The position numbers and the translations under genes were made by a program. Positions 6,006 through 19,287 of a DNA stretch of 64,000 nucleotides are shown one piece after another (position 1 is the stretch's first letter; the number at the start of each line of letters is the position of its first letter). The stretch is taken from positions 5,394,001 to 5,458,000 of the forward strand of contig NZ_CP154796.1 of the NCBI RefSeq assembly GCF_039566955.1. The letters are read 5' to 3'. This stretch comes from Micromonospora sp. DSM 45708 (GTDB taxonomy: Bacteria; Actinomycetota; Actinomycetes; Mycobacteriales; Micromonosporaceae). Below the pieces are notes generated by a model, which saw only the letters and a program-made list of their open reading frames with translations, was not told the origin of the DNA and did not search any database.

Positions 6006-7004
6006 GTGACCTACCTCGCCAGCGACGACCGTTACGACTCGATGATCTACCGGCGCAGCGGACGCAGCGGGCTGAAGCTGCCCGTCATCTCCCTCGGCCT
6101 CTGGCACAACTTCGGGCCGGACCGGCCCTTCGAACGGCAGCGCGACATCGTCCGCCGCGCCTTCGACCTCGGCATCACCCACTTCGACCTGGCCAACAAC
6201 TACGGCCCGCCGCCGGGCGCGGCGGAGGAGGTGTTCGGCCGGCTGCTCGCCACCGACCTGAAGCCGTACCGGGACGAACTGGTGGTGTCCAGCAAGGCCG
6301 GCTACCTGATGTGGCCCGGCCCGTACGGCGAGTGGGGCTCCCGGAAGTACCTGATCTCGTCGCTGGACCATTCGCTGCGCCGGCTGGGCCTGGACCACGT
6401 GGACATCTTCTACTCGCACCGGTTCGACCCGGACACCCCGCTGGAGGAGACGATGGGCGCGCTGGACGCGATCGTCCGGTCGGGCAAGGCGCTCTACGTG
6501 GGCGTCTCCAACTACGACTCGGAGCAGACCGCCCGGGCCGCCGAGATCCTCCGTGACCTGGGCACCCCGCTGCTGATCAACCAGCCGTCGTACTCGATGC
6601 TCAACCGCTGGACCGAGTCCGACGGCCTGCTGGACACGCTGGACCAGGTCGGCGCCGGGTGCATCGCGTTCAGCCCGCTGGCCCAGGGTCTGCTCACCGA
6701 CCGCTACCTGGGCGGCATCCCGGCCGACTCGCGCGTGCGGACCAGCGTCTTCCTGAACGAGAGCGACCTGGACGAGGCGCGGATGGCCACCGTCCGCGCG
6801 CTCGCCGAGGTGGCCCGGCGGCGCGGGCAGAGCCTGGCCCAGCTCGCCCTGGTGTGGGCGCTGCGCGACCCGCGGATGACCAGCCTGATCATCGGCGCGA
6901 GCAGCGTCGAGCAGTTGGCGGGCAACGTCGCCGCGCTGGACGAGCTGGACCTCGCCGGCGAGGACCTGGCCGAGATCGACCAGATCCTCGCCGACCCGCG
7001 GTGA
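6006..7004 (+). CDS. Aldo/keto reductase, YghZ/glyceraldehyde-3-phosphate reductase type
   Basis: 332 aa from the GTG at 6006 (MTYLASDDRYDSMIYRRSGR). The AKR tetrad is Asp and Tyr in FDLANNYGPPPG, Lys in VVSSKAGY and His in IFYSHRFDP. NYGPPPG and MWPGPYGEWGSRKYL are characteristic of the YghZ/MgrA subgroup, which reduces L-glyceraldehyde 3-phosphate and methylglyoxal in characterised members. A CAGAAT hexamer ends 10 nt before the start and GGGAGG lies about 16 nt before it, so the leader is very short. It diverges from the other reductase and converges with the beta-helix gene, with stop codons 10 nt apart. Confidence 0.88.
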   Translation: MTYLASDDRYDSMIYRRSGRSGLKLPVISLGLWHNFGPDRPFERQRDIVRRAFDLGITHFDLANNYGPPPGAAEEVFGRLLATDLKPYRDELVVSSKAGYLMWPGPYGEWGSRKYLISSLDHSLRRLGLDHVDIFYSHRFDPDTPLEETMGALDAIVRSGKALYVGVSNYDSEQTARAAEILRDLGTPLLINQPSYSMLNRWTESDGLLDTLDQVGAGCIAFSPLAQGLLTDRYLGGIPADSRVRTSVFLNESDLDEARMATVRALAEVARRRGQSLAQLALVWALRDPRMTSLIIGASSVEQLAGNVAALDELDLAGEDLAEIDQILADPR

Positions 7005-7013
7005 GGCCGGCGG

Positions 7014-8606
7014 TCAGCGGAAGATGGTGCCGTTGCCGGCGTCCCGGACCGCGCTCACCCGGTTCGGGGTGAACGTGTTGCCGGGTCCGACCACTGTCGC
7101 GTCGCAGCCCTCGGTGACGTAGAGCCCGTAGCGCTGCGTCCTGACGGTCTGGTCGTCGACGGCCACGTTCCCGCTGACCACGGTGTCGACGCAGGTGATC
7201 CCGGTCGCCGTGGTGACCCGGATGCCGTCCCGGTTCGCCGTGTCGTCGGAGCTGTCGGTGACGTGGTTGTCGACGACCCGGTTGTCGGTGCCGCTGTTGA
7301 TGTTGATGCCGTCCTGCCCGGCCTGGTCGATCACGTTGTCGCTGATGATGTTGTGATCGGCCGTCTTGTTCGGCTGGTCGGCGGTGGACGAGGCACGGTT
7401 GACCTGGATGCCGTGCCCGCCCACGTCGCTGATGGTGCAGCCGGTGACCGTGTCACCGCTGGTGGCCAGCAGTTCGACGCCGTCGCTCTGGGCGCCGCTG
7501 ATGACGCAGTCCCGGACCGTGTTGCCCATCGACGTCCAGGTCTGGTTCTTGCCGTCGAACACGATGCCCCGCCCCCGGGACGCGGTGACCCGCACCCGCT
7601 CCACGACCATGTTGTTGCCGTCGTCGAAGTCGAGCGCGTCGCTGGTGCTCCGGGCTGCCCCGCCGGCCGAGACCGCGAGGTCCCGGACGATCACGCCGTC
7701 CCATCCCTTGGTGTTGAACGGCTCGGTGTCCCCCGCCGTCGAGTTGTCGTTACGGATCAGCGTGTCGTACATGCCGGCGCCGACGAAGGTCACCCGCCGG
7801 ATGCCCTCCAGTTTCAGGTACTCGGCGCCGAAGTCGAACGTGCCGGCGTCGAACCGGACCACGCCACCGCCCAGCCGGTTCAGCTCGACCACGGCGCTCT
7901 CCAGCACGGTCTTGAGACTGCCGGTGTAGGTCTCGCCGGTCACGTCGGAGGCCGCCCGGTAGGTCGTCGGCCCGGTCCTGGTCACCACGTACGGCGACGG
8001 GTCGGGCGGTGCCGGCGTCAACAGTTGCGGCTTGTTGGTGCCCTCCCGGCTGGTCACCCGCAGGCCGGTGTCGTTGGTGGTGGTGAGCGCCACGGTCACC
8101 GGTCCGTTGCCGGTGACCAACGACGAGACGTTCACCGACACCCAGGTGTCCGCGCCCACCGGTCCGCTGCGGACGACCGTGGCGCCGATCGGTGGGGCGT
8201 TGTCGTCGGTGATGGTGCTCTCGTCCCAGGCGCTGTCGGCGACGGGGTGGACGTCCACTCCGGTGCTGCTGGCGGTCTCCACGTAGAGACGCAGCACCGC
8301 GGTCGGGTCCGTGTCGACGTCGGTGACCTCGAAGCGCAGGTAGGCGACCTGTCGGGGCACGGCGTCGACGCGGAGCGAGGCGGTCCGCCCCGCGTTGACA
8401 GTCGGATGGGAGGCGTCCACCCAGGCGTCGGCGACCGGGGTGAGCGTCACGGCCGCAGCCGCCCGGGCGACCTGCGCCGCGGTGGTGGCGTGCGGCTTCG
8501 CCGTGGCGCGGGCGGGTGCCGCGGCGGCGGGCGACGCGACGGCGACGACGGCCAGGACCAGTGCCGGCGCGAGGTGACGGAGCGGGGATCGGGATCGAGC
8601 TGTCAT
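7014..8606 (-). CDS. Secreted right-handed beta-helix protein with DNRLRE-like N-terminal domain
   Basis: 530 aa from the ATG at 8606, preceded by GAGGAG. Signal peptide in residues 1-32 (LAPALVLAVVAVASPAAAAP). Residues about 53-190 form a DNRLRE/CBM96-like beta-sandwich (ADAWVDASHPTVNAG, YLRFEV, DESTITDDNAPP). From about residue 230 a parallel beta-helix begins, with repeats such as NMVVERVRVTASRGRGIVF, NTVRDCVISGAQSDGVEL and DTVTGCTISDVGGHGIQV. Such solenoids occur in polysaccharide lyases, epimerases and surface adhesins; catalytic residues are not obvious. It is the last gene of the glycan cluster, 66 nt after the GH99-like gene, and may bind or modify the cluster's polymer. Confidence 0.8.
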   Translation of the reverse strand: MTARSRSPLRHLAPALVLAVVAVASPAAAAPARATAKPHATTAAQVARAAAAVTLTPVADAWVDASHPTVNAGRTASLRVDAVPRQVAYLRFEVTDVDTDPTAVLRLYVETASSTGVDVHPVADSAWDESTITDDNAPPIGATVVRSGPVGADTWVSVNVSSLVTGNGPVTVALTTTNDTGLRVTSREGTNKPQLLTPAPPDPSPYVVTRTGPTTYRAASDVTGETYTGSLKTVLESAVVELNRLGGGVVRFDAGTFDFGAEYLKLEGIRRVTFVGAGMYDTLIRNDNSTAGDTEPFNTKGWDGVIVRDLAVSAGGAARSTSDALDFDDGNNMVVERVRVTASRGRGIVFDGKNQTWTSMGNTVRDCVISGAQSDGVELLATSGDTVTGCTISDVGGHGIQVNRASSTADQPNKTADHNIISDNVIDQAGQDGININSGTDNRVVDNHVTDSSDDTANRDGIRVTTATGITCVDTVVSGNVAVDDQTVRTQRYGLYVTEGCDATVVGPGNTFTPNRVSAVRDAGNGTIFR

Positions 8607-8672
8607 TTGCTCCTCCAGAACGGTGTGGAGGGTGGCCCGGGCCGGCCGCGACATCGGTGGTGGGTCGCCCGG

Positions 8673-10859
8673 TCAGTGGTGGAGCGGCGCCTCCTCGGAC
8701 CGCGCGGCGCCGGATGGGGTCGACGGCGTGGCGGCGGCTCGCGCACGCCGTCGACGGCGGTACAGCCAGAGCGGCACCAGGACCACCACGCCGACGGTCA
8801 GGGTCAGCGCCGCCCAGGCGGGCAGGCCCCAGTCGTCGCCGTCGGCGGTGCTGCTGTCCAGTTGCGCGTCGGGGTTCGGGGCGACGCCGAGCAGGTCGGC
8901 CAGCACCAGCAGGTACCTGCTGCCCCACTGTTCACTCGGTTCCACGTAGGTGTTCTCGGTGAACTCGTTCCAGCTGATGACGCCGAGGGCGTCGGGCTGG
9001 GAGAGCTGGGCGGCGGCGAAGGACGCGCGCAGCGTCTCACCGTCCCGGCGGGGCACCTCCCTTCTCCCGCCGATCTGGCGGGCGTCGAAGCCGGGCGAGA
9101 CCGGGGCGATCCACAGTCCGCCACGGAGGTGGACGGCCCGGGACATCGCGGTGAGCTTGTCCCGGCTGCGGTCGGCGAGCGGATCGGCGGACGACCAGTA
9201 GTACGCCTGCCCGTCGAGGCTCGACTGGCTGTTCACCACCGAGACGCTCTTGGCGGTGCCGAGGACCTGGAGTTTCTCCTGGGCCTGACGGACGGTGTCC
9301 GCGACCTCGGCGGCGGAGTACCGGTCGCTGCCGTTCCAGATCACCACCGGCTGGTCGAAGATCCCGAAGACCGGGTCGGCCGCGTAGCGTTCGGCGAAGA
9401 CGGCCAAGTCCGTCCGGACCGTGGCCAGTGGCAACGGCTTACGGCTGAAGTCGATGCCCTGGTAGACGATGCCGAGCCGGAAGCTCTCGGCGCGGGCGAC
9501 CTCGACCAGCGCGGCGAGTCGTTCGTCGAGCTGCACGGTGTGCTTCCAGGAGACCAGGAAGCCGGTGATCCCGGCGGCCTTCGCCATCCGGACGTGCCGC
9601 CGCATGATCTCCTCGTCGTCGCTCGAATAGCGCCCGAGCACCGGGTAGTCGATCTTCGCCCTGTTCCACGAGCTCGGGTTGAACCAGATGTAGTAGTAGG
9701 CCAGCACCGGAACCGGTGCCGGCGGCGTGGCCGGAGCCGCCGCGGGCCGGGACCCGGAACGGACGGACGCGGCCGGTGCCCGGGCCGCCGGCAGGCTCGC
9801 CGCGGCGACCGTCACCAGCACCAGCACCAGACCGGCGGCGGCGCGTGGCCGCCGGCGACGCCGCGCGGCGGAGCGGAGCGCCCGCAACGGGCGGCGCAGG
9901 TGCGGGCGGCCCAGCAGGACCAGCCCGACGGCCACCCCGAGCACGCCCACCGCCACCAGCGCCAGGTCGACGATGCTGATCACGGTGAGCGTCACCTCCT
10001 GGTCCCGGCTGATGGTCACCGGCCGGCCGAAGGAGAGACCGCCGCCGCGTACGGTCAGCGTGTAGGTGCCCCGGGGCAGGTCGGGGACCAGCACGGTGCC
10101 GTCCGAGGCGAACCCCAGGTGCTGCACCCGCCCGTCGGCCCGGGTGAGTCGGATCCCGCTGCCGGCCCGCCGGGGGAAGAACATGTCCGAGGCGGTGAAC
10201 GACACCTTGAAGAAGAGCAACTGCACCACCCAGCTCTGCCGGTCCCAGGGCACGAACTTCTGGCCGGCCCGGTTGACCACCGAGGTGCCGTCCACCATCA
10301 CGGCGTCCACCACGTAGTAGAGGCGTTTCGAGGCGAGCCCCCGGGGTCCCTGCTGGGTGCGGCTCTCGGCGACCCAGAGCGGCCTCGTCAACTGGTCACC
10401 GGTCAGCTCGATGATCTCGCCGGTGTTGCTGCGCAGTTGCATCGCGGTCGCCCGCCGGGTCGGCACCGGCGACCCGAACCGGTCGGTGTAGCGCCAGCTC
10501 ACGCGCCGGACCGTGCGCAGGCCCACCTCGACGACCCGGTCGCGTACGCCGTGGTCCAGGCTGCCCCGGATGCGGTCGAGCATCACCCTCCGGTCGACGC
10601 CGACCGCCGCCGAGCCGACCGTGAGCCGCTTGTCGAGCCCGAGGAAGTTCCGGACCCGGACGTTCACCCGTCCCTTGGCGTCCGAGCGACCGGTGTTGCC
10701 GTCGACCGCGACCGGCACGCCCCGGATCGGCGGCACCATCTGGAGGTGCAGTGTGCCGGGCAGCGCGGAGCGGGGTGCGGCCGTGGCGGCGACCGGGGTG
10801 AGCAGGACGCCCAGCAGCACCAGGATCAGCGGCGGCAGCAGCCGGCGGGCGGCGCTCAC
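8673..10859 (-). CDS. Membrane-anchored two-part protein: beta-sandwich module plus GH99-like glycosidase domain
   Basis: 728 aa, GTG at 10859, overlapping the upstream phosphoesterase stop by 4 bp. Order: signal/TM (1-27), an extracellular beta-rich module (28-290) with a PRGTYTLTV segment, TM (about 295-320), an Arg-rich stretch, TM (340-360), then a GH99/GH71-like domain from VLAYYYIWFNPSSWNRAKIDY to SWNEFTENTYVE, and a C-terminal TM (680-705) followed by RRRRRARAA. The positive-inside rule puts both large domains outside and the Arg-rich linker inside, so it looks like two surface proteins joined. The GH99 family includes endo-alpha-mannanases. The substrate is inferred to be the surface glycan made by the upstream genes. 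Confidence 0.75.
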   Translation of the reverse strand: MSAARRLLPPLILVLLGVLLTPVAATAAPRSALPGTLHLQMVPPIRGVPVAVDGNTGRSDAKGRVNVRVRNFLGLDKRLTVGSAAVGVDRRVMLDRIRGSLDHGVRDRVVEVGLRTVRRVSWRYTDRFGSPVPTRRATAMQLRSNTGEIIELTGDQLTRPLWVAESRTQQGPRGLASKRLYYVVDAVMVDGTSVVNRAGQKFVPWDRQSWVVQLLFFKVSFTASDMFFPRRAGSGIRLTRADGRVQHLGFASDGTVLVPDLPRGTYTLTVRGGGLSFGRPVTISRDQEVTLTVISIVDLALVAVGVLGVAVGLVLLGRPHLRRPLRALRSAARRRRRPRAAAGLVLVLVTVAAASLPAARAPAASVRSGSRPAAAPATPPAPVPVLAYYYIWFNPSSWNRAKIDYPVLGRYSSDDEEIMRRHVRMAKAAGITGFLVSWKHTVQLDERLAALVEVARAESFRLGIVYQGIDFSRKPLPLATVRTDLAVFAERYAADPVFGIFDQPVVIWNGSDRYSAAEVADTVRQAQEKLQVLGTAKSVSVVNSQSSLDGQAYYWSSADPLADRSRDKLTAMSRAVHLRGGLWIAPVSPGFDARQIGGRREVPRRDGETLRASFAAAQLSQPDALGVISWNEFTENTYVEPSEQWGSRYLLVLADLLGVAPNPDAQLDSSTADGDDWGLPAWAALTLTVGVVVLVPLWLYRRRRRARAAATPSTPSGAARSEEAPLHH

Positions 10860-12229
10860 CGGGGCCGCCGCCGTCCCCGTACGGCCGCCGCGCCGACCAG
10901 CGCGCCGACGAGCAGCAGCGCGGTGGCGTACGCGCCGTAGACGGGCCGGGGGTCGGGCCGTTTCAGCGCGACCGGGGTGCGTTCGGCGCTGAGCAGGACG
11001 CCGGGGCGTGGTGGCGCGTCGAAGTCGAACGCGTCGAGGAACGTGTTCGCCCTGGCGTCCCGGCTGGCGAGCGGTTTCAGCCGCCAGTTGATCTCGATGA
11101 ACTTCAGCACCGAGGTGAAGTCGAGCGTGGTGGAGTCGACCCGCCCGCGCCGGGCGTACGGGCTGACCAGCAGCGCCGGCACCCGGAACCCGTAGCCGTA
11201 CCGGTCGACGCGGGGCGGCGTGACGTGGTCGTACCAGCCGCCCCAGTCGTCGTACGACCAGATGAAGGCCGACGAGGACCACTCCGGGGAACGCATGAGC
11301 TGCGTCAGCAGCGCCCGGACGAGGTTCTGGCCGGCGCCGATGTTGCCCGGCGGGTGCTCGCTGTTGCCGGCCGGCGCGATGAAGGAGACCGCCGGCAGGT
11401 CGCCCTTCGCCGCGTCCGCGTAGTACTCGTCCAGGTCGACGATCTTCGAGAACAGGCGCGGGTCGTCGACGTAGCGGGCGTACCCCAGCAGCGGGACCCA
11501 GATGACCTGCGCGCCCCGGTCGATGTCCTCCTCCTCGACCCGGGACCGGAACGTGATGGTCGGGTCGTAGTTCTGCACGTAGAACTTCCAACTGATCCCG
11601 GCCGCCTCCAGCCGGTCGAAGATGGTCGGGATGTCGCCCCAGCCGGCCGCCGGAATGGTCTCCGCCTTGCCGGCCGCGCCCGGGCCACCGGTGACCCGGT
11701 ACATGTGGTTGCGGATGCTGCCGGAGTGCGACGAGCTGAAGAAGCGGTCGAAGAGCACGTACTCGTCGGCCAGGTTCCAGTAGTACGGCAGGTCGCGGTC
11801 GTCGTAGTAGGCCATCGCCATCCGGCCGTCCTTGCCGGCCCGGCTCACCCCCTCCACGAAGCCGTTCATCCGGCCGCCGTTGTACTGCTGGGCGAACGCG
11901 TCGGCGGAGTGGTCGAGGTCGATCGCGCCCAGCTTGCCGATGTGGAACGGCTTGACGCAGGGTTCGGGCAGGTCCGCCCGCATCGGCATGCAGACGTCCT
12001 TCGGTATCCCGTCCACGCCGGGCCGGGTGCCGAAGTAGTTGTCGAACGTGTGGTTCTCCTGCATGAGGAAGACCAGGTTCTCGATCGGCGTGGTCGGGGC
12101 GGCCGGCGAGTTCGGGGCGGCCGACGCGGTGGCCGGCGCCGCCGTCACCACCGACAGCGTCAGCAGCACGGCGACGGCCGACAGCCGCCCGGCCCGGCGC
12201 CGGAGCGCGGAATCGATCCGACGGGTCAT
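10856..12229 (-). CDS. Secreted phospholipase C/acid-phosphatase-type phosphoesterase, C-terminally anchored
   Basis: 457 aa, ATG at 12229 overlapping the preceding stop (ATGA). Signal peptide in residues 1-36. The bacterial phosphoesterase (PLC/AcpA) motif VFLMQENHTFDNYFGTRPG near residue 52 carries Glu, Asn and the catalytic Thr. HPPGNIGAGQNLV and SYDDWGGWYDHVTPP are the other metal-site signatures. A C-terminal hydrophobic helix (about 430-448) ending in RGRRRPR anchors it to the membrane. The family cleaves phosphodiester or phosphomonoester bonds outside the cell. In this operon a lipid-linked sugar or a phosphate-decorated glycan is a reasonable but unproven substrate. Confidence 0.85.
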   Translation of the reverse strand: MTRRIDSALRRRAGRLSAVAVLLTLSVVTAAPATASAAPNSPAAPTTPIENLVFLMQENHTFDNYFGTRPGVDGIPKDVCMPMRADLPEPCVKPFHIGKLGAIDLDHSADAFAQQYNGGRMNGFVEGVSRAGKDGRMAMAYYDDRDLPYYWNLADEYVLFDRFFSSSHSGSIRNHMYRVTGGPGAAGKAETIPAAGWGDIPTIFDRLEAAGISWKFYVQNYDPTITFRSRVEEEDIDRGAQVIWVPLLGYARYVDDPRLFSKIVDLDEYYADAAKGDLPAVSFIAPAGNSEHPPGNIGAGQNLVRALLTQLMRSPEWSSSAFIWSYDDWGGWYDHVTPPRVDRYGYGFRVPALLVSPYARRGRVDSTTLDFTSVLKFIEINWRLKPLASRDARANTFLDAFDFDAPPRPGVLLSAERTPVALKRPDPRPVYGAYATALLLVGALVGAAAVRGRRRPR

Positions 12230-13875
12230 GGCCGCACCTCATAAATGATGATCACGGGGACGGGAACGTCGCGACCGGAGGCGTCGGCGGCGCCGACGTA
12301 CTCGGTGTGCACGATCCGGCCGTGATAGCGCCGGACGAGGGTCGCCAGCCGGTCGGCGAAGAACGTCGAACGGCGCGCGGAGAACGAGTCCCAGACGATG
12401 TAGTGCAGGTTGTTGTTGCGCAGCCACCCGTCCGGGTTGTTGAGCGCGACGTAGGACGGGTTGCGGTGCAACGGGTTCGGACTGACCGACAACCCGTAGC
12501 TCTGCCGCTGGCCGTAGTAACGGATGATGTTCGACATGGACGGGCCGAGCGTGAGGATCACCGACCCGTCCGGCGTGTGGTCGGTCAGCCACCGGCCGGC
12601 CTCCCGGCCGCCCGGCACGCCGCCGGACCCGGCCAGGAAGTGCGTCCCGCCCTGCTGACCCACCGCCCGCCAACAGGGCCCGAGCAGGCTCAACGCCACC
12701 GCGGCGACCGCCGCGAGCCGGACCACCAGGTGGACGCGCGCGCGGGGCATCACCCGCCGGGGGACGGCGGCGAGCCGGGCCGGCACCGGCAGGACCGCCA
12801 GCGCCCGCGCGGCGAGCACCGCCACCGGCACCACGACCGGCAGCAGGTACTGGAAGCCCTTGACCGGCCAGAGCTGGAAGAAGACCACCGGGACGGCGAT
12901 CCACGACAGCAGCAGCGTCTCCCGCCAACTGCGCTGCCGACGGGCCAACCACAGGCCCCCGAACGCGGCGAGCAGCACCAGCAGCCCGATCGACGTGGGC
13001 ACGTTCTCCAGGTAGAACGACATCGGATGGTTGGGCCGCCGGAACAGCTGCCAGACGAGGTAGCTGCGCCCGGTCTCGGTGCGGCCGGCCAGCGCTTGCG
13101 AGATCGGGTGGGTGGCGAAGACCAGCGCCAGCACCGGCAGCGCCAGCAGCGTGGCCCGCACCGGTCGGCGTACGCCGGGGGTGAGCGCCAGGAACGCGTA
13201 GACGCTGCCGGCCAGCACGATGCTGGTCTCCTTGGCCAGCATGGTGACGCCGAGCATCGCGGCGGTGGCCACGTACCAGAGAGCGTCCTGCCGCTGCACG
13301 AACCGGACCATGCAGTAGAGCGTGAGCGTGGCCAGCAGCACCATCGGCCCGTCCAGCAGCACCTGACGGGTCACCACCACGTGGTACGGCATCACGGCCA
13401 GCAACAGCGCCGCGACGAGCCCGACCCGCCGGTTGTAGAGCCGCGCGCCCAGCGGATAGACCGCGAGCACGGTCAGCACCCCGAGCACCACGATGACCAG
13501 CCGCCCGGCCACGTCCACCTCACCGACCCGGAAGAACGGCGAGAGCAGCGCCTGGACGAGCATCGGGTGGGCCCGGAAGACCGGGAAGTACTCGGTGTAG
13601 CGGGGGTTGCCGGCGAGCGAGGCGGCCTGCCCGGCGTACACCGCCTCGTCGCTGTTGAAGCCGAACGCGTCGATCTGCCACGTCCGGACGAACAGCGCCA
13701 GCACGGCGACGCCGGTCAGTCCACCGGCCACCTTCCACTTCGGCCGCCGCAGCGCCGGCAGCCAGGCCGGCGGCGCGGGCCTCCGCTCCCCCTTCCGCCC
13801 CCCGGTTCGCTGTTCGTCGCCGCTGCGCTGCTCGGGCAGGGTGTCGGTGGTGGTGGCCGGAGGGCTCACGCTCAC
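12226..13875 (-). CDS. GT39/PMT-family integral membrane glycosyltransferase
   Basis: 549 aa, GTG at 13875, overlapping its neighbours by 4 bp on both sides. A Pro/Arg-rich cytoplasmic tail (1-45) is followed by about 12 hydrophobic helices. The first external loop contains FGFNSDEAVYAGQAASLAG, whose Asp-Glu pair matches the catalytic acidic pair of PMT/ArnT-type transferases. This family moves a sugar from a polyprenyl phosphate donor to an acceptor on the outer membrane face. The upstream gene carries a polyprenyl-phosphate-sugar-synthase-like GT2 domain, so the two probably work in sequence. Confidence 0.85.
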   Translation of the reverse strand: MSVSPPATTTDTLPEQRSGDEQRTGGRKGERRPAPPAWLPALRRPKWKVAGGLTGVAVLALFVRTWQIDAFGFNSDEAVYAGQAASLAGNPRYTEYFPVFRAHPMLVQALLSPFFRVGEVDVAGRLVIVVLGVLTVLAVYPLGARLYNRRVGLVAALLLAVMPYHVVVTRQVLLDGPMVLLATLTLYCMVRFVQRQDALWYVATAAMLGVTMLAKETSIVLAGSVYAFLALTPGVRRPVRATLLALPVLALVFATHPISQALAGRTETGRSYLVWQLFRRPNHPMSFYLENVPTSIGLLVLLAAFGGLWLARRQRSWRETLLLSWIAVPVVFFQLWPVKGFQYLLPVVVPVAVLAARALAVLPVPARLAAVPRRVMPRARVHLVVRLAAVAAVALSLLGPCWRAVGQQGGTHFLAGSGGVPGGREAGRWLTDHTPDGSVILTLGPSMSNIIRYYGQRQSYGLSVSPNPLHRNPSYVALNNPDGWLRNNNLHYIVWDSFSARRSTFFADRLATLVRRYHGRIVHTEYVGAADASGRDVPVPVIIIYEVRP

Positions 13876-16322
13876 GCCGGCCCTCCCGCCACCGTCAGGT
13901 CACCGCTCCAGCTCGGCCACGGCTGGACGGGCACCACCGGGGCGTGCCGGCCGGCCCGCTCCGCCCGGAGCAGCCGGGGGATCTCGTCGGCCCAGCCGAA
14001 GGTGTCCGAGACGACGACCCGGCTGCGCACGTGGGACAGGAAGCTGGCGAGGATCTCCCGCTCCCGCGCCCGGAGCTGGACGTACCCCTGGCCGTCGATG
14101 GTGATGGACGGCGCGAGGTAGCGGAACGGCGGGAACCCGTACGCGTCGTCGGTGTTGTCGATCATGCGGTCGAGCGTGTCGGCGGCGCCCAGCTCGGTGA
14201 TGTCGGGCTTGCCGCGCTCGATGACGAACAGTTCCTCGACCCGGGTGGTGGTGCCGATCCGGCAGGGCACCAGGCGGTCGACGCTGTACTTCGGCGGCGG
14301 GATCAGCAACTGGGTGAGGGCGTTGATCCCCATGATCGGCAGGTTGAACCGGCTGAGCGTCAGCGCCAGGGACCGGCCGCCCTTGGAGTGCAGGCGGCTC
14401 TGGAGTTGCAGCCGCCGCCACTCGGCGGGCGTCAGGTCCTGCGCCTGCACCGCCCGCAGCGTGTGCGCGCTGATGGTGAGCGGCTTGGGGAAGCAGGTCG
14501 CCACGCCGTCCGGCCGCACGATCGTCATGTCGTCGGAGAGGAAGAAACCGCCGTGGTCGCGCAGCAGCCGCAGCACGGTGGCGGTCTTGCCGGTGTCGGT
14601 CAGCGCCGAGAGCATCACCCCGACGCCGTCGAGCGTGACGCACGCGGAGTGCAGCAGCATGTGTCCCCGGGCCACCATGACGAACCGGAGCAGCGCCTCG
14701 ACGATGTTGGTGTAGACCACGTGCGGCGAGTGGGCCAGCAGCGGGCCGACCTGGATCTCGATCGGCGGGCCGAGTTGGATGCGGAAGTTCGCCCCCCACC
14801 GGCCGAGCTGCTCCTCGTAGCGCAGGACGGACTGGTCGGCGTACTGGGTCATGGCCGCGCGTCGCTGCGGCCCGCGACCGCCGATGTCGCTGACCCGCAC
14901 CGCGATGTCCACCTCGGAGTCGGGCACCCACTGGGCCCGGAAGAACTCCAGCTCCGGGAGCATGATCTGCGAGCCGATGGTGACCACGCCGGCGACGTCG
15001 TAGCGGTACTTGAGGTACTGGTAGCGGCGGCGCGACGGATTGCTGGGCGCCTCGGAGGCGCCGGCCACCAGCAGCCGCACCGGGTCGCGCCGGGCCTTGT
15101 CCACAGCGGTGTAGATGACCCGGTCGTTGACCAGGAACCGGACCAGGAAGAACGCCACCAGGGTGGCCGCGTTCGCGACCAGGATGCCGACCCCGGCCCA
15201 GACCAACGCCTGGAGGACGGGCAGCCGCAGCAACAGCAACGCGTTGTTGAGCAGGAAGAACCGGGCCGCCCGGGCGGCGGACGAGCCGTGCCGGTTCCGC
15301 CGGTAGATCAGGCTGTCGATCAGCAGGAAGTTCCACGAGGTGGACACCTGGGTGGCCAGTGCCGCGCCGACGAGGTGGTGCATCCGGGCGGGTTCGTAGC
15401 AGAACCAGAGCACGGCGGTGTTCACCACCATGCCGGAGAGACCGACCATGCCGAACGCGATCATCCGGCCCACCTCACGCAGGCGTTCGACGCGGGTGCG
15501 CGGGCTCCGCCGGATCTGCCCGACGAGGCGGCGGCCCCGCAGCCGGGCCAGGTGCCGCAGGAACGTCACGCCCTCCCGCACGGACGCCTTCGACCGGCCG
15601 CCGTGCCGGGGCGCCATGTCGTACGCCACCTCGGCGACCCGGGCGCCGGGGTGCCGCACCAGCAGCTCCAGCAGCACCTTGAAGCCCGTCGGGTGCATCC
15701 GGTCCAGGCGTACCGCGGCACGGCGGAAGGCGAACAACCCGCTCATCGGGTCGCTCACCGTGGCCAGCCGGCGCGGGAACATGCCCTTCACCAGGCGGGT
15801 CACCCAGGACGAGGTGGCCGTCCGGAGGGGCCCGTCGAGCCCGCCCGGGGAGCCGTTGCCGGCGTACCGGGTGCCGATGACGACGTCGACGTCGTGCCGC
15901 ATCGCGATCCGCGCGAGCGTCGCCGCCGCCTCCGGCGGGTGCTGGAGGTCGGCGTCCATCACCAGGACCCACTCGCCCCGGGCGTGCGCGGTGCCGAGCA
16001 GGACCGCGCCGCCCAGTCCACCGGCGCGGGCGTGCGGCGGCCGGTGCAGCAGTCGTACGGTGACCGGTGCCGCCGCGGCCACCCGGGTGAGCACCCCCGT
16101 CGTGCCGTCGTCGCTGTCGTCCACCACGAGGAGTTCCGCGTCGAGCGGGGCCAGCAGCGGGCCGAGCCGCGCCAACAGGATCGGAACGTTCTCCGCCTCG
16201 TTACGGGTCGGCACGATGACGGTCAGTCGGGGCGGGCGGCCCTCGTCCGCCTCGTGCAGCGCTTGGAGCTGCGCCTCCGGTTCGGTTCGCCGGTCGCGAA
16301 CTCCGGATCCGACTCTGTTCAT
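13872..16322 (-). CDS. Triple-domain fusion: GT2 (polyprenyl-P-sugar synthase type), GtrA membrane domain, HPr-kinase-like P-loop domain
   Basis: 816 aa, ATG at 16322. Residues about 32-260 are a DPM1-like GT2 domain (LTVIVPTRNEAENVPIL, VVDDSDDG, MDADLQHPPEA with the DXD-type acid cluster). About 288-400 is a GtrA-type bundle of four helices (RMIAFGMVGLSGMVVNTAVL). After a linker, about 450-800 resembles HPr kinase/phosphorylase ATP-binding domains: HSACVTLDGVG, the P-loop SALTDTGKT near 575, and FLSDDMTIV near 597, comparable to the LVADD motif of HprK. GT2 plus GtrA fits making and flipping a lipid-linked hexose. The kinase-like part is unexpected; its substrate is unknown, and neither its activity nor its fold is proven. 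First gene of the coupled run. Confidence 0.8.
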   Translation of the reverse strand: MNRVGSGVRDRRTEPEAQLQALHEADEGRPPRLTVIVPTRNEAENVPILLARLGPLLAPLDAELLVVDDSDDGTTGVLTRVAAAAPVTVRLLHRPPHARAGGLGGAVLLGTAHARGEWVLVMDADLQHPPEAAATLARIAMRHDVDVVIGTRYAGNGSPGGLDGPLRTATSSWVTRLVKGMFPRRLATVSDPMSGLFAFRRAAVRLDRMHPTGFKVLLELLVRHPGARVAEVAYDMAPRHGGRSKASVREGVTFLRHLARLRGRRLVGQIRRSPRTRVERLREVGRMIAFGMVGLSGMVVNTAVLWFCYEPARMHHLVGAALATQVSTSWNFLLIDSLIYRRNRHGSSAARAARFFLLNNALLLLRLPVLQALVWAGVGILVANAATLVAFFLVRFLVNDRVIYTAVDKARRDPVRLLVAGASEAPSNPSRRRYQYLKYRYDVAGVVTIGSQIMLPELEFFRAQWVPDSEVDIAVRVSDIGGRGPQRRAAMTQYADQSVLRYEEQLGRWGANFRIQLGPPIEIQVGPLLAHSPHVVYTNIVEALLRFVMVARGHMLLHSACVTLDGVGVMLSALTDTGKTATVLRLLRDHGGFFLSDDMTIVRPDGVATCFPKPLTISAHTLRAVQAQDLTPAEWRRLQLQSRLHSKGGRSLALTLSRFNLPIMGINALTQLLIPPPKYSVDRLVPCRIGTTTRVEELFVIERGKPDITELGAADTLDRMIDNTDDAYGFPPFRYLAPSITIDGQGYVQLRAREREILASFLSHVRSRVVVSDTFGWADEIPRLLRAERAGRHAPVVPVQPWPSWSGDLTVAGGPA

Positions 16323-16639
16323 GACAACCCCCACGGTCGGCACGAGCGGCATGAGCCACGTTGATGACGGCACTGATGCAGAACCGTCCGCCGGAGAGAC
16401 GAATGATTTCCCCGGAGTTCGGCAAGGGACGAGACCCGCAGCACGGGGTGGCGGCTCGGATACGCAGAGAGTACGGAGGGTTAACAGTGGACCTCCAGTT
16501 CCTGAAAAGTCAGCACCACGACATGTCCAATAAGCGAAGTCGACCGCAGTGGTTCACATATAGATGAGGTGCTTTCCCAGCTCAGGACCGGTACGCGCAC
16601 GCCATTCACCTTGCCGCGCGCCACGTGTCGAACAATGCG
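16323..16639. other. Non-coding leader and promoter region of the glycan operon
   Basis: 317 bp between the fusion gene start and the terminator of the upstream GH99-like gene. It is less GC-rich than its surroundings, notably 16500-16570, which fits a promoter region for the minus-strand operon. No clear -35/-10 pair could be assigned. Short reading frames crossing it lack codon bias and recognisable sequence. Confidence 0.5.
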
Positions 16640-16690
16640 AAAAAACTGCGCCACCGCTGCGACGCGACTCGTCGCAACAATGGCGCAGTT
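16640..16690 (-). terminator. Intrinsic terminator with T6 tract for the GH99-like gene
   Basis: Two nested perfect stems: outer AACTGCGCCA (16644-16653) with 16681-16690, inner TGCGACG (16658-16664) with 16670-16676, and a 5-nt loop. On the minus strand the hairpin is followed by six T residues (complement of 16640-16645). This is a textbook intrinsic terminator, rare in such GC-rich DNA. It isolates the operon starting at 16322 from the upstream gene. Confidence 0.88.
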
Positions 16691-16792
16691 GTGAATCATG
16701 ACGCCCCCGGCACCGGGTCGGCGTGCGTTAATTGAACAGCGGCACGGAATGGTCGCGCGGCGGTGGCACACGGCCGCCGCCACGCGCCACCG

Positions 16793-18097
16793 TCATCCGG
16801 ACGTCACGGTCGGCGGGTAGGCGTGCAGCACGGCGACGAAGTCGGACCGGCCACCGTCGCTCCAGTCACAGAGCGCGCCGGCCGGCGCGACGCCCCGACA
16901 CCCCACCGAACTCTCGATCGACGTGCCCTCGCCCCACTCGTTCCAGGTGGTGACGAGCTGCCAGAACGCGCCGGAGGCGGCCATCCGGGCCACCCCGGCC
17001 CGCCACCGGTCCAGGTTCCGGGCCAGGAACGGCGCTCGCCCGTACGGCAGCCCGGCCTTCCAGAAGCCCGGCGAGACGGTGTACGCGCCGCCCGGCACCC
17101 CGCTGAAGTCGGCCTCGGCGTGGGCCGGGGCGTACTGGTGCCAGGCGTCCACGGTGACGCTGTTGGCGCAGTGGCGGTAGCCGGAGAACACCTTCAGGCT
17201 GAGGTAGATGGACTCGCCCCAGAGCCGCTGGAGCAGCGACCGGGCGCGGACCCACCGGTCGACGGTGTCGCAGCCGTCGGCTGTGGTCCGGTCGAGGGCG
17301 TTGTAGACGAAGACCACCATGCCCCGGCCGGGCAGCACGGCCAGCGCCGAGCGGTCCCCGCCGTACGTGCTCCGCAGGTAGTGCAGGTCGGCGGCGATCC
17401 GGTCGGGGGTGGGCCGGCCGATGCCCTCCGGCTCGTAGTAGGGCGCCCAGGCGAACCCGGTGTCCCGGGCGCCCCGGAACAGCGCCGGCCAGTGCCGGTC
17501 GGTGGTGGTGCCCTGGCCGAACCAGGAGGCGACGCCGACCGTGACGCCGCCGTACCGCATGTCCGCCACCTGGTCCCGGACCACCGTCTCGTCCACGGTG
17601 TAGAGCCCCCGGCTCGGCCGGTAGTTCGTGTACGGGTCCAGCCCGCCCTGACGCCACGCCTCCGGGAACCACGGGTAGTAGAAGGCGGCCCGGACGGCGG
17701 TCGGCGTCCGCACCACCAGCCGCAGCGTCGCCTGCCGCCGCAGCGCCGCGCCGACGCCCTCGACGACGAGCGTGAAGGTGCCGGCGCGGGTCGAGACGGA
17801 GGTCTGCACCGTCACCGTGGCCGAGGCCCCGCTCGTCACCGTGGCCGGCGTGACCGTGGCGAAGACGCCCGCGGGCAGGCTGGTCACCCGCAGCGCCACC
17901 GGCTGCGGCGCCCCGCCGGTGGTCGTCGTGGCGACCGTCGCCCGGGCCGGATGTCCGGCCACCGCCGTGACGGCGGCGGGCGCGACGGTCAGGGCGAAGT
18001 CGTCGGCGGCGACGGTCGGTGGCGCCGCCGACGCGGACGGTCCGGCCGGCGCGGCGACGGCCAGCACCGTGAGTACCACTGCGAGACGCACGAACAT
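16793..18097 (-). CDS. Secreted GH99-like protein
   Basis: 434 aa, ATG at 18097 with GAGGAGTG just upstream. Signal peptide in residues 1-25 (VRLAVVLTVLAVAAPAGPSASA). An N-terminal Ig-like module (about 30-130, VTAVAGHPARATVATTTT) precedes a GH99/GH71-like catalytic domain from VRAAFYYPWFPEAW to VTTWNEWGEGTSIES, where the Asn-Glu of WNEWGEGT is a conserved active-site segment of the family. Unlike the 8673-10859 protein it has no C-terminal anchor, so it should be released. It follows the AA10 monooxygenase by 146 nt and ends in its own strong terminator. The likely job is cleavage of an alpha-linked polysaccharide. Confidence 0.8.
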   Translation of the reverse strand: MFVRLAVVLTVLAVAAPAGPSASAAPPTVAADDFALTVAPAAVTAVAGHPARATVATTTTGGAPQPVALRVTSLPAGVFATVTPATVTSGASATVTVQTSVSTRAGTFTLVVEGVGAALRRQATLRLVVRTPTAVRAAFYYPWFPEAWRQGGLDPYTNYRPSRGLYTVDETVVRDQVADMRYGGVTVGVASWFGQGTTTDRHWPALFRGARDTGFAWAPYYEPEGIGRPTPDRIAADLHYLRSTYGGDRSALAVLPGRGMVVFVYNALDRTTADGCDTVDRWVRARSLLQRLWGESIYLSLKVFSGYRHCANSVTVDAWHQYAPAHAEADFSGVPGGAYTVSPGFWKAGLPYGRAPFLARNLDRWRAGVARMAASGAFWQLVTTWNEWGEGTSIESSVGCRGVAPAGALCDWSDGGRSDFVAVLHAYPPTVTSG

Positions 18098-18242
18098 CGA
18101 CACTCCTCTGCGTTGCCCTGCCTGGTTCGACAAGGGGGCAACGCGGGAGCGACCGGTCGGGTGACTGTGCGGCCCGGCGGCGGCCCGGTGCGCCGGCCGC
18201 CGGCCCGCGCGCGACGACCCGGGCGGGCACGGGCGTCCGGCC

Positions 18243-19142
18243 TCACCAGATGCGGCGCCGCCCGGCGCGGTGGTTGCGGACCCCGCAGGGCCGTCCGGGC
18301 GGGGGACCGCCGGCCCGCCGCATCCGCCGGCCGACCACGGCCGCGAGCAGCGCGGCGACCACCACCGCCCCCGCCGCGCCGACGACCAGCGGCCGGGAGA
18401 ACGGGCCGGTCCCGGTCACCGCCGCGACCGGCACTCCCGGCGCGTCTGGGGTCGCCGACCCCGAGAGGGTACGCGGAGCCGCCGCGCCCGCCGCCGGAGC
18501 GGCCGACCGGGTGGTGCGTGAGGCCGATCGGAAGACCACGTCGGAGCAGGAGTAGTAGGTGTCCTGGGTGTTCGAGTTCTGCCAGATCACGTAGATGAGG
18601 TGCCGGCCCGTGCGCCCGGTCGGCAGCCGCCCCGGCATCTCGTACGCGCCGTCGCGGATCGGCGGGTTGGTCACCGACAGGAACGGCTTCCGCTCCACGT
18701 CGGCCCAGGTCAGCCGCGCGTCCGGGGCGTACGAGGCGGTGGTGACGTAGAACCGGAACGTGCCCCGGTGCGGGATCGTGGTGCGGTAGCGGAAGGTGTG
18801 CCGGGCGCCGGCGGTGAGCGTGGTGGCCGGCCAGTCGGTCCGGGGCAGGTCCAGTCCCCGGTACGCGGAGAGCCCGCCGCTGCACAGCTCGCCGTCCGGA
18901 ATGCGTTCCCGGTCCCGCCCGTCGATCCGGGCCACCCGGATGTTGTCCCACTCCCGTACCGCCGCGCCGGCGGCGATCGCGGCCCGGCAGGCCGGCGTCC
19001 CCGCCCGACCACCCTCCGGCCCGCACGCCGCCGCGCGGCTCATCGGGCTGGTCGGCGCGCCGTGGGCGCTCGCCGGCACGGCGGTGAGCAGCAGCGTCGC
19101 GCCGACGACGGCGAACGCGACGAGCGCGCGACGTGTGCCCAT
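18243..19142 (-). CDS. AA10 lytic polysaccharide monooxygenase, C-terminally membrane-anchored
   Basis: 299 aa, ATG at 19142 with GGGAGG about 7 nt upstream. A signal peptide ends at ASA, so the mature protein begins with His27 (HGAPTSP), the N-terminal half of the copper histidine brace. The second brace histidine is expected in TTIPHRGTF (His125). VIWQNSNTQDTYYSCSDVVF is the conserved C-terminal signature of AA10 enzymes, which oxidatively cut chitin or cellulose. After a Ser/Ala/Pro linker a hydrophobic helix (about 247-270) followed by RRMRR indicates anchoring to the cell. Most AA10 enzymes are free or carry binding modules, so anchoring is unusual. Confidence 0.88.
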   Translation of the reverse strand: MGTRRALVAFAVVGATLLLTAVPASAHGAPTSPMSRAAACGPEGGRAGTPACRAAIAAGAAVREWDNIRVARIDGRDRERIPDGELCSGGLSAYRGLDLPRTDWPATTLTAGARHTFRYRTTIPHRGTFRFYVTTASYAPDARLTWADVERKPFLSVTNPPIRDGAYEMPGRLPTGRTGRHLIYVIWQNSNTQDTYYSCSDVVFRSASRTTRSAAPAAGAAAPRTLSGSATPDAPGVPVAAVTGTGPFSRPLVVGAAGAVVVAALLAAVVGRRMRRAGGPPPGRPCGVRNHRAGRRRIW

Positions 19143-19287
19143 GTGATCGACCTCCCGCGCACTGGTACGGGCCGGAGGCGACAAAGGTTCGATCCGCACC
19201 GTCGCCACGTCCGGTCAGGCTCGCCTGGCCGAACGGACAAGCGGGGCGGCGGAGCGGCCGGGGTGGGCCCTACAGTGACCACACCCT

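Follow-up and report, generated by a model that had tools for sequence, protein, structure and literature searches.

What does an actinobacterium do with a run of overlapping genes that joins a lipid-sugar synthase, a kinase, a membrane glycosyltransferase, a phosphoesterase-family protein and a glycosidase? The question is raised by positions 7014–16322 of a 64,000-nucleotide stretch of Micromonospora sp. DSM 45708 (contig NZ_CP154796.1, positions 5,394,001 to 5,458,000 of the forward strand), which we call the window and to which coordinates below refer. A first-pass annotation, made from the sequence alone, had proposed a five-gene operon that charges a lipid with sugar, flips it, transfers the sugar outside, cleaves a phosphate bond and trims the product. 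Our best reading is that the gene set belongs, as an undescribed variant, with the multi-component (GtrA/GtrB/GtrC-like) transmembrane glycosylation systems, and we put the probability of a mannose-specific operon of this kind, coupled to a kinase, at about 65%. Predictions from the protein sequences support charging, flipping and outside transfer, as well as trimming by a hydrolase; cleavage of a phosphate bond as a general step does not hold.

A mannose-type synthase, a GtrA domain and a transferase in overlapping genes

All genes of the unit lie on the minus strand. The four core genes are chained by 4-nt overlaps, exact at 13872–13875, 12226–12229 and 10856–10859, and the domain content is as first annotated, with Pfam matches to GT2 (PF00535), GtrA (PF04138), PMT_2, PF04185 and GH99, followed by CBM96 and a beta-helix in the fifth gene. 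The first gene (13872–16322), whose ATG start at 16322 is conserved in all six aligned rows, fuses a GT2 domain of the dolichyl-phosphate-mannose synthase (DPMS) type (~16229–15465) to a GtrA membrane domain (15455–15114) and an HprK/PEPCK-like kinase (~15041–13899). Its GT2-GtrA half matches the DPMS of P. furiosus (5mlz) over the full length (E 3e-41), and the GtrA domain scores 51 bits against a PF04138 cut-off of 26.1, as expected of a GtrA-type flippase. Together with the active-site residues, the DPMS match predicts a GT-A enzyme that makes a polyprenyl-phosphate sugar.

Which sugar this would be is indicated by the motif DADLQH in the GT2 part, the mannose signature of DPMS. According to the accessible part of PMC5526996, Asp89 and His94 of this motif contact mannose in the P. 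furiosus enzyme, whereas the glucose enzyme GtrB reads DADLQD. Site conservation was counted over 44–56 rows per part, as set by a coverage requirement; two loci with broken frames (L085 and L099) stay in these counts and are named where they fail. The histidine of the motif (H145) is retained in 45 of 47 rows, and the acceptor-phosphate residues Arg117, Arg131 and Ser135 align to R169 (40/47), R184 (46/47) and S188 (40/47). Given the signature, the conserved H145 and the acceptor-phosphate residues, mannose is the likely sugar. The protein thus shares with the type III DPMS of P. furiosus the GT2 and four-helix domains, DADLQH and the acceptor-phosphate residues (PMC5526996, as far as its accessible text goes); it differs in bearing a C-terminal HprK-like kinase and in sitting in a bacterial operon. 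Other genera of the family (L044–L054) hold GT2-GtrA proteins that are ~42–48% identical to the first half, kinase-free and placed in other contexts.

The second gene (12226–13875) encodes a polytopic GT39/PMT_2-like glycosyltransferase (PF13231, 2.1e-25). Crude hydropathy places its acidic motif D76-E77, present in 45/45 rows, in an outer loop, as in GT-C transferases.

A kinase of predicted HprK/PEPCK fold fused to the synthase

The C-terminal part of the first gene, ~390 residues that Pfam leaves unnamed above cut-off, had been called kinase-like, which was right but incomplete. Profile search, a predicted model and fold comparison all assign it the HprK/PEPCK fold, and it carries the catalytic His, GK[ST] and DD of the HPr kinase/phosphorylase superfamily, a motif that is invariant in 56/56 rows. 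The model was obtained from a 54-row alignment that included nine of 12 weak relatives and left out L104, L110, L111 and L099; nine close rows by themselves gave a predicted local distance difference test score (pLDDT) of 31. The kinase shares fold, catalytic His, P-loop GK[ST] and DD motif with HPr kinase/phosphorylase (HprK/P) and the HprK-related kinases A and B. Unlike these, the operon kinase has the P-loop A.TDTGKT and is joined to a membrane synthase in actinobacterial loci, and the window copy falls short of the curated cut-offs of TIGR04352 and TIGR04355 (20.3 and 25.4 bits against 200) and of PF07475 (14.2 against 33.3).

HprK/P is a metabolic sensor. Among solved structures it is also the best relative of the kinase in sequence, and in fold the best ones are PEPCK and HprK/P. 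One could therefore picture an HprK-type sensor or phosphorylase that tunes surface glycosylation to the carbon state through HPr or a similar carrier. We consider this quite unlikely: the sequence match to HprK/P is confined to the core motif (profile positions 135–195), and the scores just given keep the window copy out of the named HprK families.

Conservation, distribution and gene fusions

A neighbourhood survey, which the first-pass annotation had called for, found the genes together. Our set of 57 kinase-bearing loci comprises the window, L056–L099, L126 and L158–L168; all six domain parts occur in 44 of them, spread over several actinobacterial families and Chloroflexi, which rules out that the genes are scattered. 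The part profiles were built from L056–L101, so L158–L168 serve as an independent check: seven of these 11 are complete and the other four lie near contig ends. No further recurring neighbour was found, no other cluster of open reading frames (ORFs) exceeding 5/45 loci; the flanks therefore differ. Among several dozen kinase-free GT2-GtrA matches, 12 loci (L044–L055) were searched by tblastn (E 1e-4) and contain no relative of the window's PMT_2-like transferase, phosphoesterase or GH99 enzyme.

Thirteen loci are incomplete. In seven the sequence stops no more than 3.2 kb past the kinase (L061, L073, L098, L159, L163, L164 and L165), the next gene still being visible in four (L073, L098, L159 and L163); the remaining six are taken up below.

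Full-length copies occur in 8/250 genomes of the window's family: seven in the window's genus and one other genome, which carries two copies. In all eight family loci fetched besides the window, the four core genes stand in the same order, and a full-length beta-helix relative comes next in six. Among 396 genomes of the phylum we found one further strong copy (G335); any match occurs in 12, the window's own included, of which 10 are weak. In Chloroflexi, the phylum of L096, strong copies are present in 13/301 genomes. The weak matches, in the 10 of 12 genomes just mentioned and in 92 of 105 Chloroflexi genomes with a match, represent remote kinases and were excluded from member counts. These 92 of the 301 Chloroflexi genomes hold only such remote HprK-like matches, to which no role is assigned. 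Two peptide patterns of the kinase, run against a species-genome collection (84,980 species), returned at least 44 loci. Presence in Rhodococcus was rejected: the copies in L087, labelled R. rhodnii NRRL B-16535, nest inside Kibdelosporangium, and the genome is probably mislabelled.

The junctions are kept to different degrees. Of the 46 loci with both a transferase and a phosphoesterase gene, 44 join them by a 4-nt overlap, the exceptions being the broken L085 and L099. The kinase-transferase junction is looser (4-nt overlap in 31/49); in two Blastococcus loci (L079 and L081) the block lies next to the kinase gene in reverse orientation, and in four loci the two genes are far apart. GT2, GtrA and kinase are separate genes in L158, and GtrA and kinase share a single frame in L126, L161 and L165. 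In L162 (one genome), GtrA, kinase and transferase form one open frame with a long low-complexity linker. Phosphoesterase and E_N, the N-terminal domain of the window's GH99 protein, are one frame in L096 and L097; E_N and GH99 are fused in 14 loci (the window, Micromonosporaceae and L089) and separate genes in most others. Further joins in L085 were not counted because its frames are broken. This chain of fusions across lineages argues that the proteins act together.

The same data bear on a simpler account, in which an ordinary actinobacterial locus for Ppm1/Pmt protein O-mannosylation has picked up hitchhiking neighbours. Actinobacteria are known to mannosylate proteins in this way, and a DPMS-type GT2 next to a PMT_2 fold is what such a locus would show. 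Against it, the block keeps its order and its overlaps in both phyla, its occurrence in the window's genus is patchy (7/63 genomes), unlike that of a housekeeping Pmt, and the extra parts are co-conserved and seen fused, hence not random neighbours; we regard this account as unlikely.

Loss of catalytic residues in the PF04185 partner

The third gene (10856–12229) encodes a PF04185 phosphoesterase-family protein (5.4e-74) with, by crude hydropathy, a signal-like N-terminal and an anchor-like C-terminal hydrophobic segment. Its solved relative 2d1g, an acid phosphatase, supplies the catalytic positions, which we take to be Glu43, Asn44, Ser175, Asp386 and Asp387. The window copy has all counterparts (E58, N59, S171, D327 and D328). 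Across the orthologue group, the set (E, N, S/T, D, D) is complete in 21/46 loci, the window included, and at least one residue is lost in the other 25 (a single one in L081), so that the protein does not qualify as an active enzyme throughout. Different signatures of loss are seen in Streptomycetaceae/Streptosporangiaceae, in Pseudonocardiaceae with neighbouring lineages, and in some of the Chloroflexi. A quick tree was built from kinase, transferase and GH99 sequences (42/57 loci, each part covering >75% of the reference; with long-branch warnings). On it, the intact and degenerate states require three or more changes, and this number by itself cannot separate loss from gain. In the same loci the sites of kinase, transferase and GH99 have not decayed, apart from GH99 in the broken L085. 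Because the PF04185 residues are lost where these other sites persist, a catalytic phosphate step is not the shared function, and the phosphate cleavage proposed at first is ruled out as a conserved step.

This pattern also weighs on a phosphomannose pathway, in which the kinase would phosphorylate lipid-linked mannose or a precursor and, after export, an outside phosphatase (PF04185 or a CBM96-metallophosphoesterase) would remove or use the phosphate. The unvarying kinase motif is in keeping with such a pathway, as is the recurrence of phosphatase-type proteins: PF04185 itself, CBM96-PF00149 proteins, and a PHP-domain gene between kinase and transferase in two Chloroflexi loci (L096:11142–11846 and L097:11247–11978). 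Yet the kinase stays intact in the 25 loci with a degenerate PF04185 protein, and no fixed replacement appears: CBM96-metallophosphoesterases stand beside intact (L060, L072 and L082) as well as degenerate copies (L086 and L094), and the fetched stretches of L087, L088, L090, L091 and L095 gave no CBM96 match. We judge the pathway improbable.

It has been proposed that some GT-C enzymes recognise their acceptor only with the help of another protein (PMC8035078, in the part of the paper available). An acceptor-binding role of the PF04185 protein fits both this proposal and its coupling to the transferase.

GH99-like proteins, the E_N domain and variable neighbours

The fourth gene (8673–10859) encodes a membrane GH99-like glycosidase whose N-terminal part contains E_N (9885–10787), a conserved domain that Pfam does not name; a hydrophobic segment comes after it. 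The GH99 part (~9722–8865) scores 44.7 bits against the PF16317 cut-off of 33, matches endo-alpha-mannosidase 4acy/4acz (2e-6) and has both glutamates, E632 and E635, that are catalytic in the family; they are retained in 43 of 44 rows, all but the broken L085. The enzyme belongs by sequence to the fold family of the GH99 endo-alpha-mannosidases 4acy and 4ad1 and keeps both glutamates; unlike them it is membrane-anchored and lies in a biosynthesis-type operon, and overall similarity is weak. Of 45 loci searched, 35 contain E_N; the profile used was made from 30 of these 35 rows. A GH99 copy in G247 that seemed truncated is whole, the first match having covered only its first part with the remainder present in the DNA.

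After a gap of 66 nt follows a gene for a secreted protein with CBM96 and a right-handed beta-helix (7014–8606; PF24517 and PF13229). The gap stands if translation begins with the ATG at 8606, a start backed by the two closest relatives (L036 and L037), in which similarity begins at residue 17. Of the five-gene unit first proposed, the core is borne out, while this gene is a lineage-variable partner: other loci have a CBM96-metallophosphoesterase nearby or gave no CBM96 match in the fetched stretch. Relatives adjoin the block in L056–L059, L065, L066, L072, L083 and L079. Of nine proteins inspected for their CBM96 match, eight carry a calcineurin-like metallophosphoesterase domain (L060, L068, L070, L072, L080, L082, L086 and L094). 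In L070, which has the kinase and no block, a Glyco_tranf_2_3-type GT2 lies at 11080–12549 with a CBM96-metallophosphoesterase further on, which suggests an alternative partner set.

Upstream of the operon, 16793–18133 (minus strand; start codon uncertain) encodes a second, probably secreted GH99-like protein that was absent from the first ORF list. Its PF16317 match (7.2e-5) is below the curated cut-off, and the motif WNEWGE is intact. Within a sample of 61 genus genomes, only the window's and G247, both operon-bearing, have this gene; G150 and G249 have the operon without it. Relatives with 64–89% identity lie upstream in L056, L057, L058 (partial match) and L059, with a more distant one in L065.

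Fungal mannan is a substrate of bacterial GH99 enzymes, and one may ask whether the locus is catabolic, with GH99, CBM96 and beta-helix proteins digesting foreign mannan outside and the GT2 and PMT_2-like enzymes protecting or priming the cell. The second GH99-like gene, the CBM96 proteins and a gene for a lytic polysaccharide monooxygenase (LPMO_10; 18243–19208, minus strand) still further upstream would suit such scavenging. The core genes, however, encode lipid-sugar assembly and membrane-anchored parts, and no further gene, be it a sugar transporter or a regulator, recurs with them beyond 5/45 loci; a scavenging locus is very improbable.

Proposed mechanism and relation to known systems

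In the mannose-specific glycosylation operon that we favour, the GT2 domain would transfer mannose from GDP-mannose to polyprenyl phosphate at the inner face of the membrane, the GtrA domain would carry the lipid-linked mannose across, and the GT39-like enzyme would pass it to an acceptor outside. The translationally coupled PF04185-family protein and E_N would hold or recognise this acceptor, and the membrane GH99-like enzyme would trim alpha-mannosidic bonds. The computations establish the domain content, a predicted fold for the kinase, conserved motifs at the active sites, co-conservation, overlaps and fusions; sugar, direction, acceptor, kinase substrate and trimming are what we infer here. 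The fused kinase would face the cytosol. Its most likely task is to control the GT2 reaction through phosphorylation of a serine, in the synthase itself or in a partner, much as phosphorylation is reported to raise the activity of yeast and human DPMS. Taken further, the proposal that the kinase controls the supply of lipid-linked mannose in cis, and that the PF04185 protein, its catalytic residues lost in at least three lineages, is the acceptor-binding subunit of the GT-C mannosyltransferase, is a tentative one that we hold to be possible and short of probable.

Several observations weigh against this interpretation. In 6/47 rows an Arg replaces Q144, the Gln that binds metal in the DPMS motif, and in 7/47 the serine that the kinase would phosphorylate is absent or substituted. 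Five loci lack the full block despite more than 7 kb of downstream sequence (L068, with a divergent PMT_2 in 8.3 kb; L070; L076, with the transferase only; L077; and L078), as does L080 within 5.3 kb, so kinase and block are separable. Four genomes from a single other family (L127–L132, partly short contigs) have E_N without kinase or GH99, and in one of them a PF04185 relative adjoins it. Alpha-mannose is the specificity of the GH99 family, and for the operon enzyme it is carried over from the family. Transcription of the core genes as one unit, finally, is again something that we infer.

In agreement with the first-pass annotation, no description of a locus with this set was found in the open-licence literature, an absence there being no proof; among the matches listed for the 'GAK system' and lasso-peptide kinases, nothing concerned this gene set. 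Actinoplanes missouriensis belongs to the same bacterial family as the window organism. Its gsf cluster also provides GtrA-dependent modification of an envelope polysaccharide, and its deletion leads to small sporangia; the gsf GtrA is small and separate, and the accessible text of PMC13390465 mentions no phosphoesterase, GH99, HprK or dolichyl. With GtrA-GtrB-GtrC, GtcA/CsbB/YfhO and CsdAB/CflA of L. lactis, as described in the available part of PMC8035078, the operon shares charging of polyprenyl phosphate by a GT-A enzyme, a GtrA-type domain and outside transfer by a GT-C enzyme. Unlike these three- and multi-component systems, it has a GT2-GtrA fusion, a mannose-type synthase and a fused kinase, and adds a coupled PF04185-family protein, E_N and GH99 parts.

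If the interpretation is correct, a regulated, kinase-bearing class would join the transmembrane glycosylation systems, with a candidate for bacterial control of polyprenyl-phosphate-mannose supply. It would also supply candidates for acceptor recognition by smaller GT-C enzymes, a question raised in PMC8035078 (part of the text). The PF04185 partner, decayed in several lineages yet still coupled to the transferase, would be a case of an enzyme turned binding subunit. The patchy occurrence within the genus means that natural strains with and without the operon can be compared.

Transcription signals and flanking genes

A scan for promoters of the sigma-70 type, which does not cover every promoter type, found no match, and Rfam at gathering threshold gave none in 7000–18200. 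A search of six proteins with PADLOC (1e-5) was likewise negative, leaving anti-phage defence unsupported. By eye, a stretch of 33 nt in front of the first gene (16494–16526, minus strand) looks conserved in six Micromonospora rows; the block is a candidate control or promoter element.

Between this block and the second GH99-like gene lies an intrinsic terminator-like hairpin (16689–16645, minus strand) of 20 counted pairs, the scan maximum, followed by a T run; across 14 kb the scan gave five sites of this type, where 2.3 would be expected. A strong upstream terminator isolating the unit had been proposed. Hairpin and T run are indeed present; lying on the minus strand behind the GH99-like gene at 16793–18133, they would end the transcript of that upstream gene. 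A flank search for presence found relatives of a neighbouring aldo/keto reductase in 61/61 genus genomes.

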